Shown: piece after piece, positions 4,145 through 12,016 of the stretch | How the letters are laid out: each line of letters begins with the position of its first letter | Position numbering within the stretch: position 1 is the stretch's first letter | Origin: Collinsella aerofaciens | Lineage (GTDB): Bacteria; Actinomycetota; Coriobacteriia; Coriobacteriales; Coriobacteriaceae | Length of the DNA stretch: 16,893 nucleotides | Reading direction: 5' to 3' | Assembly: GCA_008671285.1 (NCBI GenBank) | Contig: RPYR01000131.1 | Location: forward strand, 1 to 16,893 | Notes under the pieces: generated by a model | Told to the model about the DNA's origin: nothing | The model's input: the letters and a program-made list of their open reading frames with translations, nothing else | Databases searched by the model: none | Made by a program: the position numbers and the translations under genes

Positions 4145-5401
4145 ATGGCATTGCAATTTACAGAGCGCGAGTTCATTCCCGTGCTGCTTGGTGGCGACAT
4201 CAACGCCTATTCGGTGGCGCGCGCCTTCTACGAGGAGTACCAGGTCAAGAGTCTGGTCTTTGGCAAGTATCAGACGGGTCCCGCGTACCGCAGCCAGATT
4301 ATCGACTACACGCCCAACGTGGATATCGACACCATGCCCGTGATGCTCAAAACCGTCAACGGCATTGCCCAAGCGCATGCCGACAAGACTATTGTCCTTG
4401 TGGGCTGCGGCGACAACTATGTCGCTCTCGTGGCTCAAGCCAAGGATGCCCATGAGCTGGCGGATAACATCGTCGCTCCCTACGCGCCCTACAGCATGCT
4501 CGAGCAGTGCCAGAAGAAGGAGATCTTCTACGAGCTGTGCGAGAAGCATGGCGTGCCCTATCCACACACGTTTACCTTTACCAAGGCGATGCTCAATGCT
4601 CAGGGTGAGGTGCCTGCCGAAGTGCTCGACCAGATCGATTTTCCTTACCCGATGATTCTGAAGCCTTCTGACGGCATCATGTGGTGGCAGCATGAGTTCG
4701 AGGGCCAGAAGAAGGCCTATGAGATTGCCGACCGCGCCGAGCTGGAACAGGTCATTCGCGATTCGTATGCCAGCGGCTACACCGACGATCTGATCTTGCA
4801 GGATCGCGTGCCCGGCAACGACGAGTACATGCGCGTGCTCACCAGCTATTCCGACCGCAACGGTAAGGTCCGCATGATGTGCCTGGGCCATGTGCTGCTC
4901 GAGGAGCATCAGCCCCACGGTGTCGGCAACCATGCCTGTATCATTACCGAGCCTAACGACGAACTCATGGGCGGCGTGCGCAAGCTGCTCGAGGACCTTC
5001 ACTTTGTGGGCTATTCCAACTTTGACGTTAAGTACGACGAGCGCGACGGCTCGTTTAAGTTCTTCGATTTCAACACGCGCCAGGGTCGCAGCAACTACTA
5101 CGTTACCAACAGCGGCTTTAACGTTGCCAAGTATGTGGTGGACGAGTATGTGTTCAACCGCCCGTTTGAGCCGGAGTTTGTGACGGCGCAGGACGAGGCC
5201 CTGTGGATGGTCGTCCCCATGGGCGTCGTCGACAAGTACGTCAAGGATCCCGAGCTGCGCGCTAAGGTGCATCGCCTGGACAAGGAAGGTAAGGGCGCCG
5301 ACCCTTCGTTTATGAAGGGCGACTTTGTCTTTAACCGCTGGCTGCGCATGTGGCACACCAAGCTGCGCCACTTTAAGCTGTTCAAGACGTATTACAAGTA
5401 G
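4145..5401 (+). CDS. ATP-grasp carboxylate-amine ligase, possible D-aspartate ligase
   Basis: A 418-aa cytosolic ligase starting at ATG 4145 behind AGGAAG. Residues 10-110 form a Rossmann-like N-terminal domain (FIPVLLGGDINAYSVARAFY). The ATP-grasp core follows: PYPMILKPSDG with K173, the hinge LILQDRVPGNDEYM with E227, and the metal-binding block YSNFDVKYDERDG...FFDFNTRQGRSNYY with D294, N310 and R312. ATP-grasp enzymes of this type activate a carboxylate as acyl phosphate and couple it to an amine. The gene is followed 84 bp later by an Asp/Glu racemase. Ligase plus racemase matches the known arrangement in lactic acid bacteria where racemase makes D-aspartate and an ATP-grasp ligase (Aslfm type) attaches it to the peptidoglycan precursor. 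The substrate here is inferred from that context, not seen in the sequence; other D-amino acid or dipeptide ligases remain possible. Confidence 0.85.
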   Translation: MALQFTEREFIPVLLGGDINAYSVARAFYEEYQVKSLVFGKYQTGPAYRSQIIDYTPNVDIDTMPVMLKTVNGIAQAHADKTIVLVGCGDNYVALVAQAKDAHELADNIVAPYAPYSMLEQCQKKEIFYELCEKHGVPYPHTFTFTKAMLNAQGEVPAEVLDQIDFPYPMILKPSDGIMWWQHEFEGQKKAYEIADRAELEQVIRDSYASGYTDDLILQDRVPGNDEYMRVLTSYSDRNGKVRMMCLGHVLLEEHQPHGVGNHACIITEPNDELMGGVRKLLEDLHFVGYSNFDVKYDERDGSFKFFDFNTRQGRSNYYVTNSGFNVAKYVVDEYVFNRPFEPEFVTAQDEALWMVVPMGVVDKYVKDPELRAKVHRLDKEGKGADPSFMKGDFVFNRWLRMWHTKLRHFKLFKTYYK

Positions 5402-5410
5402 ATGAGTGCG

Positions 5411-5440
5411 GCGCCCGTCCGGTTTGCATCGGGCGGGCGC
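5411..5440. other. GC-rich hairpin between ligase and racemase genes
   Basis: An 11-bp stem with one G-T pair (GCGCCCGTCCG, 8-nt loop, CGGGCGGGCGC) lies 9 bp after the ligase stop. It has no T run, so it is unlikely to be an efficient intrinsic terminator. It may stabilise the upstream mRNA or cause partial termination. A TATGAT at 5444-5449 just after it could be a -10 for the racemase, without a convincing -35. Confidence 0.5.
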
Positions 5441-5485
5441 GGGTATGATACGCGCAATTGCGCAAGCGTCACCAAGGAGGCGGCG

Positions 5486-6232
5486 ATGGAAAAGCTGGGA
5501 GTTATCGGCGGCATGGGCGCCGAGGCCACGTCGTATTACTACGACCAAGTGGTGCGTCATACGGCTGCTGCCTGCGATCAGGAACATATCGACATGGTGG
5601 TGCTCTCCAAGTCGACCATGCCCGACCGCACGCTGGCCATTAAGACCGGCGAGCATGCCAAGCTGCTGGCGACCATGAAAGAGTGTGCCCGGGCACTCGA
5701 GTCGCTGGGCTGTGCGCACATTGCCATTCCCTGCAACACGTCGCACTACTTCTACGACCAGATTCAGTCGTTTACCAAGGTGCCGATTATCCACATGCCG
5801 CGTGAGTCGGTGCGCTATGCCCTGGCGGGTGCGGTGATGGGGGAGTGTGAGTTCGATCCCAACCTGAGCATGCCGTCCGAGCCGGTGCGCAAGATCGGCA
5901 TCATGGGCACCGACGGCACCGTGGGTGCCGGCGTCTATGGGCGCGAGTGCGAGGCCGCGGGCGTCGAGGTCGTCTATCCCAGCGAGAAGCGCCAGAACGA
6001 TGTGATGTCGCTTATCTACGATGATGTGAAGGCCGGACGTGAGCCCGATATGGATAAGTTCGACCGCGTGATGTGGGAGTTCGCCCGTAGCGGCTGCGAC
6101 CGCGTCATTCTGGCCTGCACCGAGCTCTCGGTGCTGCAGAAGTACCGAGAGATGCCCGAGATCACCATCGACGCCATGGACGTCCTGGTGCGCGAATCCA
6201 TCATCCGTTGCGGTGATCCCTACCGCCTCTAG
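5486..6232 (+). CDS. aspartate/glutamate racemase family protein
   Basis: A 248-aa cofactor-independent racemase. The start is ATG 5486, directly behind AAGGAGG with 5-nt spacing; the upstream open frame is non-coding. The N terminus MEKLGVIGGMGAEATSYYYD is typical of the family. The two catalytic cysteines of the two-base mechanism are visible in IPCNTSHYF (C83) and ILACTELSVL (C211). Length matches the usual 230-250 aa. Members convert L- and D-aspartate, and some are broad-range amino acid racemases, so the substrate is not fixed by the motifs. It probably supplies a D-amino acid to the ligase upstream. The transcript ends at a strong terminator at 6292-6328. Whether it shares a transcript with the ligase is unclear because of the 84-bp gap and its hairpin. 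Confidence 0.88.
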   Translation: MEKLGVIGGMGAEATSYYYDQVVRHTAAACDQEHIDMVVLSKSTMPDRTLAIKTGEHAKLLATMKECARALESLGCAHIAIPCNTSHYFYDQIQSFTKVPIIHMPRESVRYALAGAVMGECEFDPNLSMPSEPVRKIGIMGTDGTVGAGVYGRECEAAGVEVVYPSEKRQNDVMSLIYDDVKAGREPDMDKFDRVMWEFARSGCDRVILACTELSVLQKYREMPEITIDAMDVLVRESIIRCGDPYRL

Positions 6233-6357: not shown

Positions 6358-7104
6358 CTAGAACAGGAAGCCGATGGCGATGAGGGCGATGCTGACGATA
6401 AGCACGGCGATGTCTAGGCCCTTGATGGGGTAGCGCTTGTACGAGCTGGCGCGCGTACGCAGATAGAAGCCGCGTTGTTCTGCCGCCAAGGCTGTGGCAT
6501 CGGTTTTGCCCACGCTTGAGATGAGCAGCGGCACGCACAGTGGCAGCATGAGCTTAAGCTTCTTAATGGGGTTCTTGGTGTCGTACTCGACGCCGCGTGC
6601 GGTCTGCGCCTCCATGATGGCGTTCATCTCCTGACCAAACACCGGCACAAAGCGCAGCGCCGTGGTAAAGGTGAAGGCATAGCGATACGGTACGTGCAGC
6701 ACCTCGACGCAGGCGTTGGCAAGGTCGTTGAGCTTGGTCACCATGAGCATGAGGATGAGTGGTAACGCCACACCCAGCAGGCGCAGACAGGCCTTTGATC
6801 CTGTGATGAGACCCGTGTCGGTGATAAAGCCCCACACCACGTTGCCATCGCGCATAAAGGCCAGCTGGAGCACCAGCATGATAAGCGCGAGCGGAATCAG
6901 CAACTTGAGCAGCGAGAACAGACGGTCGACGACGCCGGCATAGGCACCCAGCGCAAGGGTGAGTGCCAAAAAGCCCAGCAGCGCCACGTAGGTGTCGGAC
7001 AAGAAGATGCCGACGATGATGGCGGCGGCGAGGCCCAGTTTGACGACGGGATTCAGGCGATGCATCAGCGTATCGCCCGGCATGTAGTCGATGACGTTAA
7101 CCAC
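6358..7104 (-). CDS. ecfT: ECF transporter T component (energy-coupling membrane protein)
   Basis: A 248-aa integral membrane protein and the transmembrane scaffold of an energy-coupling-factor importer. Hydrophobic segments fall at roughly AAAIIVGIFL, YVALLGFLALTLALG, LLIPLALIMLVLQLAF, LLGVALPLILMLMV and the C-terminal VLIVSIALIAIGFLF. The cytoplasmic coupling helices carry the family's Ala-Arg-Gly motif (AQTARGVEYD) and a second related motif (AEQRGFYLRTRAS), which contact the ATPase. N-terminal YMPGDTLMHRLNPVVKL is also typical. I start at GTG 7104, overlapping the ATPase stop by 8 bp, with AAGGAG about 10 nt upstream; TTG 7125 and ATG 7083 are alternatives. It is the last gene of the S-A-T operon and is followed by the terminator at 6292-6328. 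Confidence 0.93.
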   Translation of the reverse strand: MVNVIDYMPGDTLMHRLNPVVKLGLAAAIIVGIFLSDTYVALLGFLALTLALGAYAGVVDRLFSLLKLLIPLALIMLVLQLAFMRDGNVVWGFITDTGLITGSKACLRLLGVALPLILMLMVTKLNDLANACVEVLHVPYRYAFTFTTALRFVPVFGQEMNAIMEAQTARGVEYDTKNPIKKLKLMLPLCVPLLISSVGKTDATALAAEQRGFYLRTRASSYKRYPIKGLDIAVLIVSIALIAIGFLF

Positions 7105-8848
7105 GGTGGACCATCTCCTTGGCAATTCGAACGACAGCGGTGACCTCGCTCACCTGCGCAAAAGCGGGCGAGACGGAAGATGCCAGACGGCGCGAGAGAT
7201 CAATAACCTGGGGAGGCTCCACGTAGGCACGCCGCATGAGATCGATGTTCGAGAATAGCTCGTGCGTGCGGCCGCGGTCGAGGATGCGACCGTCGGCCAT
7301 TACTACGATGCGCTCGGCAAAGTCGGAGACGACTTCCATATCGTGGCAGACCATGATAACGGCGCAACCGCGCTCGGCCATGGTGCGCACCGTTTCCATG
7401 ACGGTCATGCACTCGCGGTAATCAAGGCCGCTCGTGGGCTCGTCGAGCACGACGATCTTGGGCTCAACCACTACGACGGAGGCAAGCGCCACCATTTGTC
7501 GCTGACCGCGCGAGAGCGAGAAGGGCGCCTCGTCGGCCGGCAAGCCAAAGCGGTCGATGACGAGCTGGGCGCGACGCAGGGCTTCGGCGCGGTCGATGCC
7601 GGCAAGTTCTAGACCAAAGGCGACCTCGTCGAGCACGGTGTCTTTGCAGATTTGGCGGTCGGGGTTCTGGAAAAGCGTTGCCACTTCGCGTGCGATGCGG
7701 CTCGTGGGAACCGATGCCGTGTCCAAGCCCGTAACGCGTACGCTGCCCGATGCGGGCTTGAGCAAACCCGTGAGCAGTTTGGTGAGCGTGGTTTTGCCGG
7801 CTCCGTTTTGGCCGACAATGCCCACGAGCTCGCCGGGGTAGAGCGTCAAGTTGAGGTCGTGAACGGCGGCGCCTCCATGGGGGTAGGAAAATTCGACATG
7901 GTCAAAGGTGAGCACCGGCTCGGCGTCTTTCGCATGCGGGCGCAGCGATGGCGCGTGCGGGGAGCCTGCGGGCGCCCGGGTGTCGCTTGTCGCACGGTCG
8001 GGGTCGACGATTTCCGTGATTAGGCGTTCTGCCTCGTCGACATCCAGACAGGGCGTGCCGCTTACCAAGCCATCGGTCTCGAGGCTGTTGAAGATGCGCG
8101 TGGCGCGCGGACAATCGACGCCGATGGTGCGAAGCTCGTCGGTGCGTGCGAAGACCTCGTGTGGCTCGCCCTGCAGCGCGATTTCGCCATGGTTGAGCAC
8201 GAGCACGCGGTTGCAGTACTCCGAGAGCAGGGCGACCTTTTGCTCAACGACGACGATGGTGATTTCAAGTGCGCGGTTTGCCTCACGCAGCGTCTCGAAG
8301 ACCAATGTGGAGCTGGCGGGGTCGAGTGCCGCGGTGGGCTCGTCGAGAACCAAGACGCGCGGACGCATGGCGAGGATGGCGGCGATGGCTACCTTTTGCT
8401 TCTGTCCGCCCGAGAGGGTGGCGATCTCGCGGTCGCGCAGGTCGCTGATGCCGACGGTCTCGAGCGTTTCGCTCACGCGCTGCTCGATCTGGTCGTGGGG
8501 AACGCCAAAGTTCTCGAGGCCAAAGAGCATCTCGTCCTCGACGACCGAAGCGACCATCTGCGTGTCGATATCCTGCAGCACACTGCCGACGATTTGCGAC
8601 ACGTCGGTGAGCGAGACTTCGCAGGTGTCGTGGCCGTCGACCATGACGGACCCAAAGAACGTGCCGGTGTAGTGGTGGGGCACGGCGCCCGACAGGCAGG
8701 CGGCAAGCGTGGACTTGCCGGCGCCCGAGGGCCCGATGATGCCGATGAAATCTCCCTTGTTTACGCTGAGCGAGATGTGGCTGACCGCCTGCTCGGTCTG
8801 CGTTCCATAGGAGAACGAGACATCGTCGACGTTGATGATCGTTTCCAT
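7097..8848 (-). CDS. ECF transporter double ATPase (fused A and A' subunits)
   Basis: A 583-aa protein with two ABC ATPase domains joined by a Pro/Ala-rich linker (about 280-310). Domain 1 has Walker A GPSGAGKS (39-46), Q-loop Q92, signature LSGGQ (145-149) and Walker B VLVLDE (165-170). Domain 2 has Walker A GQNGAGKTT (346-354), Q-loop Q394, signature LSRGQ (445-449), Walker B IVVLDE (465-470) and H-loop H502. In domain 1 the switch histidine is replaced: the strand reads ITIVVVEQK. The two domains power substrate uptake through EcfT and the S component. The ATG at 8848 has AAAGG 5 nt upstream. The fusion and the adjacent dedicated S gene are typical of group I ECF systems. The gene is separated from the S gene by 212 bp holding two palindromic elements, which could lower or alter expression relative to the S component. 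Confidence 0.95.
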   Translation of the reverse strand: METIINVDDVSFSYGTQTEQAVSHISLSVNKGDFIGIIGPSGAGKSTLAACLSGAVPHHYTGTFFGSVMVDGHDTCEVSLTDVSQIVGSVLQDIDTQMVASVVEDEMLFGLENFGVPHDQIEQRVSETLETVGISDLRDREIATLSGGQKQKVAIAAILAMRPRVLVLDEPTAALDPASSTLVFETLREANRALEITIVVVEQKVALLSEYCNRVLVLNHGEIALQGEPHEVFARTDELRTIGVDCPRATRIFNSLETDGLVSGTPCLDVDEAERLITEIVDPDRATSDTRAPAGSPHAPSLRPHAKDAEPVLTFDHVEFSYPHGGAAVHDLNLTLYPGELVGIVGQNGAGKTTLTKLLTGLLKPASGSVRVTGLDTASVPTSRIAREVATLFQNPDRQICKDTVLDEVAFGLELAGIDRAEALRRAQLVIDRFGLPADEAPFSLSRGQRQMVALASVVVVEPKIVVLDEPTSGLDYRECMTVMETVRTMAERGCAVIMVCHDMEVVSDFAERIVVMADGRILDRGRTHELFSNIDLMRRAYVEPPQVIDLSRRLASSVSPAFAQVSEVTAVVRIAKEMVHRG

Positions 8849-8953: not shown

Positions 8954-9054
8954 CGGCTTTACGAGGGGCCTCAGGTTGGCGTGAAAGAGGAGCGAAGCGT
9001 ACTTGGGTACGCGAGCGACGAATGAACGCCAAGATGGGGTGGCTCGTAAAGCCG
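8954..9054. repeat. 101-bp nested hairpin element between ECF S and ATPase genes
   Basis: Three perfect stems are nested: CGGCTTTACGAG/CTCGTAAAGCCG (8954-8965 with 9043-9054), TTGGCGT/ACGCCAA (8976-8982 with 9026-9032) and GCGTAC/GTACGC (8997-9002 with 9007-9012), closed by loop TTGG. Between the first two, CCTCA and TGGGG (8969-8973 with 9035-9039) can pair with one wobble in plus-strand RNA. Internal loops are nearly symmetric (10/10 and 14/13 nt) and purine-rich. It starts 7 bp after the S-gene stop. There is no T run. It may be an mRNA-stabilising or processing element, a mobile repeat, or a structured RNA. Confidence 0.7.
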
Positions 9055-9060
9055 AGCGGG

Positions 9061-9633
9061 TTAGTTGAGCTTCAGGGCCTTCTGGATGGGCAGATAGAGG
9101 GCGCCGACCAGAATGGCGTTAAAGACGGCGGTCATGGCGACGACGGGCAGCATGGCGGCGGCGAGCTCGCCTACCACGCCGAGCATGGCCATCTTGATGA
9201 CCATGAAGATGACGCCGGAGACAAAGGTGGTCAGGAAGGTTGCAACAATGGCGATGGCGGGCTTGACCTGACCGTTCTTGCCGGCGGCGTTGACGATGCC
9301 GGCCATGAGCATGGCGGCGATGCCCTCGGCGGCAAAATCGACGAACGGCGAAGTGGTGGTGATCTGGATCACGGCAGCTGAGATGAGGCCAATGACGAGC
9401 GCCTGGCCGATGTTGGGGCGAACGACCAGGATGGTGAGGCAGAAGGCCGAGATGATGAACTCGGGGCTGATCATGCCGCCCGAGATGCCCGAGATGGCCT
9501 TGCCGACGGTGAAGTTGAGGATGAAGCCGGCGGCGAGCAGGATGGCGAGCAGGACGAGAGCACGGACGTCGAGTTTGCCGCGGTCGGCGGTCTGGACGGT
9601 GCGGGGCTGGGCGGCGGTGGTGTTCTGAGACAT
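9061..9633 (-). CDS. ECF transporter S component, probable tryptophan-specific
   Basis: A 190-aa membrane protein, substrate-binding subunit of the ECF importer. The start is ATG 9633 with AAGGA 8 nt upstream; the frame continues to 9663 without a better start. After a soluble Gln/Thr-rich N terminus come about six hydrophobic segments: LVLLAILLAAGFILNFTVG, FIISAFCLTILVV, ALVIGLISAAVIQI, AAMLMAGIV, AIVATFLTTFVSGVIFMVI and VVAMTAVFNAILVGALYL. The pattern ISGGMISPEF ... IQITTTSPF resembles the TrpP type of S-like protein. The strongest substrate clue is the upstream leader peptide with tandem Trp codons followed by a terminator, implying tryptophan-starvation control. S components usually bind with high affinity and need EcfA/T for transport, which are encoded next. 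The residues that bind substrate cannot be named from sequence alone. Confidence 0.88.
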   Translation of the reverse strand: MSQNTTAAQPRTVQTADRGKLDVRALVLLAILLAAGFILNFTVGKAISGISGGMISPEFIISAFCLTILVVRPNIGQALVIGLISAAVIQITTTSPFVDFAAEGIAAMLMAGIVNAAGKNGQVKPAIAIVATFLTTFVSGVIFMVIKMAMLGVVGELAAAMLPVVAMTAVFNAILVGALYLPIQKALKLN

Positions 9634-9678
9634 GGTGAAAATCCTTTCGGAAGGGGAGTGCAAGAGAAAAGCGGAGGC

Positions 9679-9808
9679 GCGTGATGCGAATGCGATCGGG
9701 CTCGAGATAGAAAAAGGCCCCCGGTCGAAACCGGAGGCCTTCCAATCACCTAGAGCGCAAAAACAGGCGTGAGGGACTTACTGTCGACCGATCGTATTCG
9801 CATCACGC
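9679..9808 (-). repeat. 21-bp inverted repeat bracketing the attenuator
   Basis: Arm 1 is 9788-9808, inside the leader codons just after the Trp pair. Arm 2 is 9679-9699, just downstream of the terminator. They match at 20 of 21 positions as inverted complements (one A-C mismatch in the transcript). Paired in RNA they would enclose the terminator hairpin. It also raises the possibility that the leader segment was copied in inverted form. Confidence 0.75.
9711..9741 (-). terminator. attenuator terminator in the ECF leader
   Basis: In the minus-strand transcript the stem is AAGGCCTCCGGT / ACCGGGGGCCTT (9741-9730 with 9725-9714), 12 bp with one U-G pair, closed by a UUCG loop and ending in a run of U (9715-9711). 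It lies 37 bp after the leader-peptide stop and 77 bp before the S-gene start, so it must be read through for the transporter to be made. Confidence 0.9.
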
Positions 9809-9846
9809 CCCCACCAGTGGTTGAGAGACTTCAGCGTGTTCTTCAT
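9778..9846 (-). CDS. tryptophan leader peptide (22 aa) of the ECF operon
   Basis: A short ORF that starts at ATG 9846 with AGGAG 8 nt upstream and ends at TAA 9778-9780. It begins MKNTLKSLNHWWGRD and ends with IGRQ. Residues 11 and 12 are consecutive Trp codons (TGG TGG, 9811-9816), a very rare amino acid used twice in a 22-codon peptide. It sits between a promoter and an intrinsic terminator, before a transporter gene. This is the layout of the classical trp leader peptide: when charged tRNA-Trp is scarce the ribosome stalls at the Trp pair and the terminator is prevented from forming. The peptide itself probably has no function. A possible antiterminator pairs CGGTCGA in the leader (9784-9790) with TCGACCG in the terminator (9722-9728). 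A ribosome stalled at Trp leaves that leader segment free, while one at the stop codon covers it. Confidence 0.85.
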   Translation of the reverse strand: MKNTLKSLNHWWGRDANTIGRQ

Positions 9847-9904
9847 GTTGGTGGCTCCTGTCGTGATGCCGTGGCGCGGTCGCACCTAGTTGCTGTTGCG
9901 CTGC

Positions 9905-9910
9905 ACTATA
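9905..9910 (-). promoter_or_regulatory. -10 element of the ECF/leader promoter
   Basis: TATAGT on the minus strand lies 59 bp upstream of the leader ATG. No good -35 is present at 17-19 bp (TCCCCG, TTCCCC or TTTCCC), so the promoter may depend on an activator or on the AT-rich palindrome immediately upstream. Confidence 0.5.
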
Positions 9911-9931
9911 GCACAGCGAAGTGTGTGCGGG

Positions 9932-9954
9932 GAAATCTTTTTTAAAAAGATTTC
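9932..9954. promoter_or_regulatory. 23-bp perfect AT-rich palindrome upstream of the ECF promoter
   Basis: Arms GAAATCTTTTT (9932-9942) and AAAAAGATTTC (9944-9954) are perfect complements around one central T. It overlaps and extends upstream from the -35 position of the ECF leader promoter. It could be an operator or an UP-type element. It could also belong to the 3' end of the dipeptidase transcript, although it lacks the separate T run of a terminator. Confidence 0.45.
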
Positions 9955-9974
9955 AGGCGGGTTTCCCACCGGCC

Positions 9975-10026
9975 AAAAGAGCGGGCTGAGCGGGCGAGGC
10001 TGCCATTGCTGCCTTGCCCGCTCAGC
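9975..10026 (-). terminator. intrinsic terminator of the dipeptidase gene
   Basis: A 16-bp stem with one wobble (9985-10000 with 10011-10026, 10-nt loop) starts 8 bp after the stop codon. On the minus strand the stem is followed within a few bases by TTTT (9978-9975). It insulates the dipeptidase from the ECF operon. Confidence 0.8.
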
Positions 10027-10033
10027 TAAGACG

Positions 10034-12016
10034 TTACTCCTTATTGCGACGGTAGAGGAAGTAACCGCCCGCGGAGATGACGGCAACGCCAGCGATGGCG
10101 AATGCGGCCACCATGCGGCCATCAAAACGATCTCCAGTGGTGGGCAGGCCGCCCTTGGTGTTCGTCTTGTTAGTGGTTACCGTGGTCGTGGTGTCGGACT
10201 TGCTAGGCTTCTCAGGCTTGGCGGCTGGCTGCTCGGGCTTAGCGGGCTGCTCGGGGGTACCGGGCTGCTCAGGAGTACCAGGCTGCTCGGGGGTGCCGGG
10301 CTGATCCGGGGTGACCGGATCGGTGGCAAGAGCATCCTTGGCGTAGGTGATGGACACCTTGAGGCCGTTGGTCTCGGTGTTCAGGTCGCTTGGGGTGAAG
10401 GGCTGGTCGAAGTTTTCGGCCTTCTGATAGGCGCGCATCTCCTGGAGCAGTGCCTTGCACTTCTTGTAGGTGTTCTCGGTAGCAGCCTTGCCGGCCTTGT
10501 TGGCCAGGGCAGTGCGGCCCTCGGTGGTCGTCTCGGCCAGCATGGCGGTGTCGACTTCCTTGTTCTGCTCGATGAGCTCGTTCTGGAGCGCATCGAGGTA
10601 GGTGCGGACGCTGGTGGCGAATTGTGCGCGGTTCGCGAAGCAAAGCGAGTTGATGTCCATCAGGACGTAGTTAATGGAGTTCTCGGGCTCCTCGTTGTTC
10701 ACGATGTCCGTCTCGCTGCAGTGACCATAATCAACGGTCTGGTCGCTGAAGTAGGGGCTGACTTCGGTCATCAGAGCGGAGTATAGCGGGATAGCGACGG
10801 AGAACTCGGCGCAGGAGAGCATCTCCCACTGGATGGTTGCAACCTCGGGGTCATAGCCCTTTCGAATCTGGAAGAGGTTGGCCTCGGCGTTGCGGTCGGA
10901 ACCGATGCTGCTGACACCGTCAGTATTGGCATTAAGGCCGGGGACTTTTTCACCGCGGTTGCCGAAGGCGCGAATCAGCTCAAACGTGTTCCAGTCGGAC
11001 TTGCTGGGCTGGAAGAACAGCGGCTGCATCTCATGAACCATGGCACCGAGCGTGACGTCATTCTTGTCCTTGTCCTTGTCCTTGACGATCTCGTAGTCGG
11101 TGCCCTCGGTCAGCGGAGCCATAAAGTAGTCGCGGCCCTGGATATAACGCGCCCAAGAGCCCATGCCCGTATTGTTGATAGATGCACCGTAGGTCTGGGC
11201 AACATCGAACTGTCCGTCTTCAAAGTACTTGGCGAAGCCCTTCTCTTCGGGCATAGTCTTGATCTCCTCAGAGTGGAGGCAGTTCTCAGGATCGTCAAGA
11301 TTGACCTGAAAATTGAGGTTACTAATGTTGGGGTTGACCGAAGCGACGTCGTCGGTCAGCTTCATAGCGATCCACTGGTGGCCGGAAAGCGCGGCGAACA
11401 GCCAAGTCTCGGTGTTGTCGGCGATGACAATCTGGTCGTTGGAGCAGACGCCCTGCTCGTCAATCAGACTGCCGATAAGCTCGACGCCCTCGCGGGCCGT
11501 TGCGCTCTCGCCCAAGATGACGCCCGCGTAGCTGTACTCGCCGATGCCGGTATTTTTGACCTCGGGATTTGCTTTGTGGGCATGCTTGGTCGTGGGATCC
11601 GCTGCCTTGGCATCGTCGTTGTAGGAGGTGCTCAGTGTTGCGGAGCAGGAGACGCCCCTCTCATTGATGCCGGCCTCGGAGTAGGCATCCCAGCGTCCGT
11701 CCCACTCAGCAGGATGGTCGCGCACGTAGCTGTAACGATACGTAGTCTTGGTCGAGGTGTAGGAGAATCCGGACTCGTCCGAGCTGTAGGTATGACCAGG
11801 GCCATAAGAGGGCTCGATGCCATAGTGTTTGAGGTAACGAGTGCCAATGTCCTCGGTGCGGCCGTAGTACGTATTACCGTCGGCCGTCAGCTTGTTGCCC
11901 ATATAGACCTGCGTGCAGGCGAGCGCAGAGGTCGGCATGGACATGATGGTTGCAGCTCCAAAGGCGAGGCCTATGCCTAACTTCTTGAGCGCGTTGACGG
12001 GGTGAGTTTTCCTCAT
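10034..12016 (-). CDS. LPXTG-anchored C69-family dipeptidase
   Basis: A 660-aa secreted peptidase starting at ATG 12016 behind GGGAGG. Residues 1-33 are a signal peptide ending SALA, and C34 directly follows. In C69 (PepD-like) enzymes the catalytic Cys is the N-terminal nucleophile exposed by processing, and CTQVYMGNKLTADGNTYYGR matches that. The family's usual asymmetric catalytic core extends through GINERGVSCSATLS and a long C-terminal half with WARYIQGRDYF. Residues about 566-623 are a Pro/Glu/Gln/Lys-rich stalk with TPEQPG repeats, then LPTTG (624-628), a hydrophobic helix and RRNKE: a sortase cell-wall anchor. The role is probably hydrolysis of dipeptides at the cell surface. A hairpin in the 5' leader and a terminator behind it suggest a single-gene transcript. 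Confidence 0.92.
   Translation of the reverse strand: MRKTHPVNALKKLGIGLAFGAATIMSMPTSALACTQVYMGNKLTADGNTYYGRTEDIGTRYLKHYGIEPSYGPGHTYSSDESGFSYTSTKTTYRYSYVRDHPAEWDGRWDAYSEAGINERGVSCSATLSTSYNDDAKAADPTTKHAHKANPEVKNTGIGEYSYAGVILGESATAREGVELIGSLIDEQGVCSNDQIVIADNTETWLFAALSGHQWIAMKLTDDVASVNPNISNLNFQVNLDDPENCLHSEEIKTMPEEKGFAKYFEDGQFDVAQTYGASINNTGMGSWARYIQGRDYFMAPLTEGTDYEIVKDKDKDKNDVTLGAMVHEMQPLFFQPSKSDWNTFELIRAFGNRGEKVPGLNANTDGVSSIGSDRNAEANLFQIRKGYDPEVATIQWEMLSCAEFSVAIPLYSALMTEVSPYFSDQTVDYGHCSETDIVNNEEPENSINYVLMDINSLCFANRAQFATSVRTYLDALQNELIEQNKEVDTAMLAETTTEGRTALANKAGKAATENTYKKCKALLQEMRAYQKAENFDQPFTPSDLNTETNGLKVSITYAKDALATDPVTPDQPGTPEQPGTPEQPGTPEQPAKPEQPAAKPEKPSKSDTTTTVTTNKTNTKGGLPTTGDRFDGRMVAAFAIAGVAVISAGGYFLYRRNKE
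10244..10315 (-). repeat. 18-bp tandem repeat encoding TPEQPG units
   Basis: Four 18-bp units (10244-10261, 10262-10279, 10280-10297, 10298-10315) differ by a few bases and encode TPEQPG/TPDQPG in the wall-spanning stalk of the dipeptidase. The unit number probably varies between strains through slippage or recombination. Confidence 0.85.

Follow-up and report, generated by a model that had tools for sequence, protein, structure and literature searches.

A predicted tryptophan leader attenuator in front of an ECF transporter cassette of Collinsella aerofaciens and its relatives

Leader, terminator and transporter genes at the locus

The window analysed here is the whole stretch of 16,893 nucleotides from Collinsella aerofaciens (contig RPYR01000131.1), and all coordinates are positions in it. 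The element and the transporter genes that follow it are encoded on the minus strand. An extended -10 promoter (TGC-TATAGT, 9905-9913) and the Shine-Dalgarno site AGGAG (9855-9859) were read from the sequence. They precede the reading frame of a leader peptide, MKNTLKSLNHWWGRDANTIGRQ, with 22 codons and the stop codon TAA (9778-9846), which was identified from the sequence, from relatives and by a shuffle scan. Region 1 (9799-9816, from alignment A2) contains the two Trp codons (9811-9816), a Gly codon in the place of Trp-3 (9808-9810) and the Arg-Asp-Ala codons. The antiterminator strand GGUCGA (9784-9789) is made up of Gly-Arg codons and was recognised by the conservation of the Gly codon. 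Region 2 (9766-9780), delimited by folds and alignment, consists of the stop codon and AGTCCCTCACGCC. In the folding it pairs either with region 1, when no ribosome is present, or with the 5' arm of the terminator, giving the antiterminator. The intrinsic terminator (9711-9741) has 12 bp, a UUCG loop and a U run, and a GACC spans its loop and 3' arm (9723-9726); both were found by sequence and folding. The terminator sits between the leader and the S gene, whose ATG is at 9633. On the 3' side of the terminator follows segment 5 (9673-9699), a complement of leader codons detected as an inverted repeat and by folding.

A sequence-only reading of this DNA had claimed a -10, a Shine-Dalgarno site, a 22-codon leader with tandem Trp codons, a 12-bp terminator with UUCG loop and U run and an ECF S gene, and every one of these parts was found on the minus strand. 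It had overlooked that the relatives have Trp-Trp-Trp where the window has Trp-Trp-Gly, and also the long inverted repeat between the leader and the segment 9673-9699 beyond the terminator. The antiterminator, which can be drawn here, was absent from its account. When the window was scanned for reading frames of 8-40 codons with a Shine-Dalgarno site, an ATG and Trp-Trp, one match was obtained, and a terminator follows it. In 200 Markov-shuffled windows, 0.11 such frames were found per window and none with a terminator. Compared with Rfam, the window gave no family at the gathering score and hence no T-box (RF00230). An Rfam scan of six loci had a T-box in L027 as its sole match; it scores 109 bits and lies at L027:2838-3085, and the S gene of that genome (G033) is on the opposite strand. 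The stretch 9000-10000 of the window had no near match among plasmids.

The S gene (9061-9633, minus strand) encodes a TrpP-like ECF S component of 190 aa, assigned by Pfam PF17099 and its predicted fold. It is followed on the same strand by a fused ECF A-A' ATPase of 583 aa (7097-8848, profile matches) and by a T component of the CbiQ family (6358-7125), which is above the cut-off of Pfam PF02361 and below that of NCBIfam TIGR02454. The cassette had been described as a complete S-A-A'-T set. The S, A, A' and T components are indeed together, but A and A' are not separate, being fused in one gene. Next to the T gene, a carbamoyl-phosphate-synthase-like protein (ATP-grasp, weak match) that adjoins an Asp/Glu-type racemase is encoded on the plus strand (4145-6232). 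Upstream, on the minus strand (10034-12016), lies a C69 peptidase with an LPXTG-type C-terminus, the anchor being slightly below the Pfam cut-off.

Conservation of the element and of its alternative pairings

The nearest genomes are those of Collinsella, and the closest one has 57% of the sampled 31-letter words of the window. The leader was present in 25 of the first 30 loci; the other five comprise one with 36 nt of upstream sequence, two tandem second S copies and two distant relatives. The named loci are the best 80 of 329 and cover Collinsella, Enorma, Olsenella, Tractidigestivibacter, Thermophilibacter, Parafannyhessea, Slackia and unnamed MAGs. Enough upstream sequence was available for 79 of these best 80, and the Trp leader is present in all 79. 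Both the leader and the terminator recur at orthologous loci, as an alignment of the regions upstream of orthologous S genes had been expected to reveal. The leader reads Trp-Trp-Trp in 78 of the 79 and Trp-Trp in L127. A Shine-Dalgarno site also precedes the leaders of the relatives. The motif TGNTANNNT was found 5' of the leader in 49 of 81 loci and in none of the Atopobiaceae-type loci.

The pattern AAYTGGTGGTGG-N(15-30)-GGTCGA occurred once each in 45 of the 65 genomes of the family, and the reversed control gave 0. A class-wide pattern search matched 187 of 396 genomes and was discarded for counts because the reversed control also matched in many. A covariance model built from 50 sequences matched 115 of 247 genomes of the order under stricter filters. 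By hand count it matched 64 of the 65-genome family, G077 being the one without a match. Before the pairing counts on 69-70 rows, two model matches (L113, L237:3407-3528) were removed because they mirrored the inverted repeat from the opposite strand, and a tRNA-like match in G036 (L253) was set aside by eye.

Some of the loci differ in the genes behind the leader. In L025 (G013) the attenuator resembles that of the nearest clade, but the S protein encoded below it shares only 59% identity, which suggests an exchange of the S gene beneath a constant leader. A divergent second S gene stands directly behind the first in L029 and L030 and at the second matches in G014, G016 and G022, so that one attenuator may serve both S components. 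In Slackia isoflavoniconvertens (L082/L241) the S gene and the element are Collinsella-like (78% identity) and unlike those of the congeners that were read; acquisition by transfer is possible.

The codons at the end of the leader, GGU-C(G/A)A, can form pairs with G(A/G)CC in the loop and 3' arm of the terminator. All 62 distinct elements use GGT as the Gly codon; the share of GGT among Gly codons is 18% in nine genes of the window and 10% in 60 loci, of which the longest plus-strand ORF was taken wholesale. On the other strand of the helix, the loop G is invariant in the 50 alignment rows and the base behind it is A in 46 of them, while columns 92-94, the three loop positions that precede the G, vary. 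For the 62 elements the loop count is partly set by choice, because the terminator anchor demanded G[AG]CC then [GC]G, which is present in 80 of 81 elements and excludes L082 (GACCGA). In the 50-row alignment the antiterminator helix is 99.0% paired, compared with 1.0-59.8% in slid registers. The four pairs of the GGUC:GACC core are formed in 69/69, 69/70, 67/70 and 68/69 rows, with G-U variants. No changes on both sides of the core helix were seen in the 50-row alignment, and covariation did not provide a proof of the core, whose pairs are nearly invariant. The fifth position was paired in 50 of 62 elements, no better than in permutations (p 0.085, 40 distinct combinations). In G030 both antiterminator strands are altered and the pairing is retained. 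The sequence GUGAGUC, which contains the stop codon, pairs with the 5' arm of the terminator in the folds.

The folding was then analysed with a ribosome mask on the 62 elements. When the mask covered the Trp codons and the last 4 nt of the terminator 3' arm were unexposed, the antiterminator had a probability above 0.5 in 53 of 62, and the mean terminator probability was 0.14, compared with 0.76 when the free leader was shuffled. The nine that did not favour the antiterminator at this point are L084, L085, L086, L115, L116, L123, L126, L136 and L140. With the mask at the stop codon, the terminator was above 0.5 in 60 of 62. When the terminator was fully exposed it won in 61 of 62 even with a stalled ribosome, and the antiterminator in 1 of 62; the switch must therefore be kinetic. 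In this folding model, the decision must fall while the polymerase still holds the end of the terminator 3' arm.

The locus thus holds a predicted reading frame with tandem Trp codons, a terminator before the gene and an alternative antiterminator, the last from folding only. We consider it highly probable (about 0.88) that in the Coriobacteriales a tryptophan importer (ECF S-AA'-T) is controlled by this element, acting as a ribosome-mediated transcription attenuator with charged tRNA-Trp as its signal. This reading is supported by the anatomy, the conservation, the gene context and the masked folding, from which we infer the stalling, the read-through and the substrate. When tryptophan is short, the ribosome would stall on the Trp codons and mask region 1. 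GGU-C would then pair with the G(A/G)CC of the terminator loop and 3' arm, the stop-codon stretch would pair with the 5' arm, and the RNA polymerase would continue into the transporter genes. With ample tryptophan, the ribosome would reach the stop codon and mask both pairing strands, and the terminator would form. It would also form when no ribosome is present, with region 1 and region 2 paired to each other.

The deviating leader of the window and the segment beyond the terminator

The leader of the window is an outlier. From the Shine-Dalgarno site to the stop codon it differs from its close relatives by five substitutions: one beside the Shine-Dalgarno site, Met-5 to Leu, Asn to His before the Trp codons, the third Trp codon to Gly, and UGA to UAA. 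Among 43 genomes of the genus, 29 matched this stretch with two mismatches and none exactly, and the change of Trp-3 to Gly was absent from all 43. The predicted switching is also less clean, with masked-folding probabilities of 0.68 and 0.29 in the window and of 0.95 and 0.04 in the close relative L061. These substitutions, including those of Trp-3 and of the stop codon, and the weaker predicted switching would fit a decaying relic, in which the control is weak or lost in this strain though working in relatives. However, the window keeps two Trp codons, the Shine-Dalgarno site, the antiterminator strand and the terminator, and L127, from another species, also has just two Trp codons. We therefore regard a relic as possible but rather doubtful.

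Segment 5, between the terminator and the S gene, is complementary to leader sequence beginning at the Trp codons. In the window, the fold of this inverted repeat is 3.8 s.d. below that of shuffles. Folds with p <= 0.05 (200 shuffles) were obtained in 42 of 76 distinct loci. These are 42 of the 45 Coriobacteriaceae-type loci (including the window and L028) and none of the 31 Atopobiaceae-type loci, the groups being made by titles and leader type. In L131, L137 and at the S gene of G139 the leader differs and segment 5 differs along with it; in G139 about 20 consecutive pairs connect leader and segment 5 sequences that are unlike those of Collinsella. For the four elements that precede symporters (see below), one fold had p 0.005, one 0.055 and two were not significant. 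An anchored test, for which 25 loci lacked the anchor, gave at least 8 of 10 pairs in 14 of 37 distinct combinations. Permutation returned p 0.0002 for these 14, but they had been selected, and the value therefore overstates the case.

Since segment 5 is transcribed after the terminator, it is unable to decide termination, and the textbook scheme of attenuation makes no use of an arm 3' of the terminator. It could serve as a site where the read-through mRNA is processed or decays, act as a clamp in the untranslated leader, or be the product of inverted-repeat correction without a role. As a tentative extension that we think has a small chance of being right, the element might be a two-tier attenuator, with the helix of segment 5 and leader as a second off-switch beyond the terminator switch. 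Segment 5 would pair with the Trp-Arg-Asp-Ala codons of the leader over about 20-28 bp. Two conditions would have to hold for this helix to form: the mRNA is a read-through product, and the Trp codons are free of a stalled ribosome. The helix could expose this mRNA to RNase III or silence it otherwise. If true, the importer would have a fast second off-switch once tryptophan returns.

Tryptophan as the probable substrate and other genes behind the element

The S protein of the window matched Pfam PF17099 (TrpP) over its full length with 22.5-22.9 bits, below the cut-off of 27.2 bits. The S proteins of relatives exceeded it (L079 with 28.4 and L237 with 33.1 bits), and TrpP was the top Pfam family for 8 of 10 S members. 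The predicted model, of moderate confidence (pLDDT 76.5), is closest in fold to solved S components. Its best matches in the PDB were S components, with a probability of 0.98-1.00 for the first six and none at E <= 0.001. When the S alignment was searched against PDB sequences, no solved chain matched up to E 1.

All 57 good genomes of the family have the S gene. The 65 family genomes were also surveyed for the trp genes trpA and trpB, which were above cut-off in 3 and 1 of them, respectively. Weaker trpB matches near 130 bits were obtained in six family genomes; the TrpB-like protein of G030 likewise scores about 130 bits with the trpB model, so these genomes may have TrpB-like enzymes. Tryptophan synthesis is apparently lacking in most bacteria of the Collinsella group, which appear to depend on an external supply. 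The hosts of the element are common gut bacteria, and the tryptophan that they apparently need from outside is a metabolite central to host-microbe exchange.

Other genes were also found behind the element. We inspected 21 model matches in 20 regions picked as weak, double or distant. Judged by eye from the translations, 15 of them stand before S genes, four before SNF-family symporters and one before a 477-aa protein, and the remaining match itself looked tRNA-like. The symporters (G139, G234, G241 and G255) and the TrpB-like enzyme were confirmed by Pfam and NCBIfam. The symporters are of the LeuT type and belong to a Slackia-like genus; their best solved relative is 4us3, which we take to be MhsT. 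In G139, the symporter and the S gene each have their own element, and the A and T genes come after. In G030, the element is followed by the TrpB-like gene (477 aa) and then by an S gene fused to the A gene, the S component and the ECF ATPase lying in one reading frame (L240:141-1634). The trp genes of G002 (L141, L204) had no Trp-Trp leader resembling that of the window. With ECF importers, LeuT-type symporters and a trpB-like/S operon behind it, the element looks like a portable sensor of tryptophan.

Tryptophan as the signal gains support from the TrpP-like S protein, the rarity of trpA and trpB, and the position of the element before LeuT-type symporters and the trpB-like/S operon. Tryptophan is also the probable substrate of the cassette, judging from the same S protein, the rare trp genes and the genes of tryptophan or amino-acid uptake behind the element. 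Substrates of S components are difficult to assign from sequence, and the S protein of the window neither reaches the TrpP cut-off nor has a sequence match among solved chains, so the transporter could be under Trp-codon control and yet carry another aromatic compound or an indole derivative. We find this very improbable, as TrpP ranks first among the Pfam families for 8 of 10 members, few genomes of the family have trpA or trpB above cut-off, and the element of G030 precedes an operon of a TrpB-like gene and an S-A fusion. The S component, recorded as a hypothetical protein (P0048), thus obtains a testable substrate and control.

The leader could also be an arrest peptide of the TnaC kind, where free tryptophan is sensed and conserved residues, instead of stalling at the codons, halt the ribosome. 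Residues beyond the Trp codons are indeed conserved (Arg after Trp-3, Gly-Arg/Gln near the end), in most loci at a fixed distance from the stop codon. In two symporter leaders, the stop codon comes before GGTC, and GGTC is kept though untranslated, which speaks for the RNA and not for the peptide. Tryptophan keeps the operon of TnaC on. An arrest peptide is very improbable here, since it is the bases that are conserved (Gly is GGT in 62 of 62, and GGTC persists after the stop), the intervening residues vary, and the sign of TnaC is wrong for the importer of an auxotroph.

The attenuator can be compared with several known systems. The S protein resembles TrpP (Pfam PF17099) over its full length, with several relatives above the cut-off. 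TrpP of Bacillus subtilis is under TRAP control and is thus regulated differently from the leader-peptide attenuation proposed here. Amino-acid transporters can also be under T-box control; in the Bacillus cereus group, for example, NSS transporters are preceded by a Trp T-box (PMC2494555). That Trp T-box is like the Coriobacteriales element in its NSS transporter targets and in sensing the charging of tRNA-Trp, which we propose for the element as well. However, a T-box binds the tRNA directly and needs no leader peptide, and none was found in the window.

The attenuators of trp operons in Corynebacterium and Streptomyces have leader peptides with two or three tandem Trp codons (PMC1262725). 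They share with the Coriobacteriales element the tandem-Trp leader, the GC-rich terminator with a U run and an antiterminator. Their targets are trp biosynthesis operons and trpS, whereas transporters are the targets here, and they use a gGCC-rGCy-GGCC triple, whereas here the antiterminator strand lies within the last leader codons and pairs with the terminator loop (PMC1262725). The control by a leader had been called unusual for a transporter, being usually known from trp biosynthesis. This stands with respect to the trp operons, but a predicted precedent exists for histidine. In Firmicutes, histidine leader attenuators are predicted before his operons and/or the hisZ*YX transporter (PMC9413887). 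Like the Coriobacteriales element they are predicted cases of leader-peptide attenuation that can reach an amino-acid transporter, and unlike it they have histidine codons and belong to another phylum and another transporter family (PMC9413887). The literature searched, which excludes most subscription journals, yielded no account of this element and none of tryptophan attenuation acting on an ECF transporter. Taken together, the mechanism is of a known kind, and what is new are its targets, the position of the antiterminator strand and segment 5.
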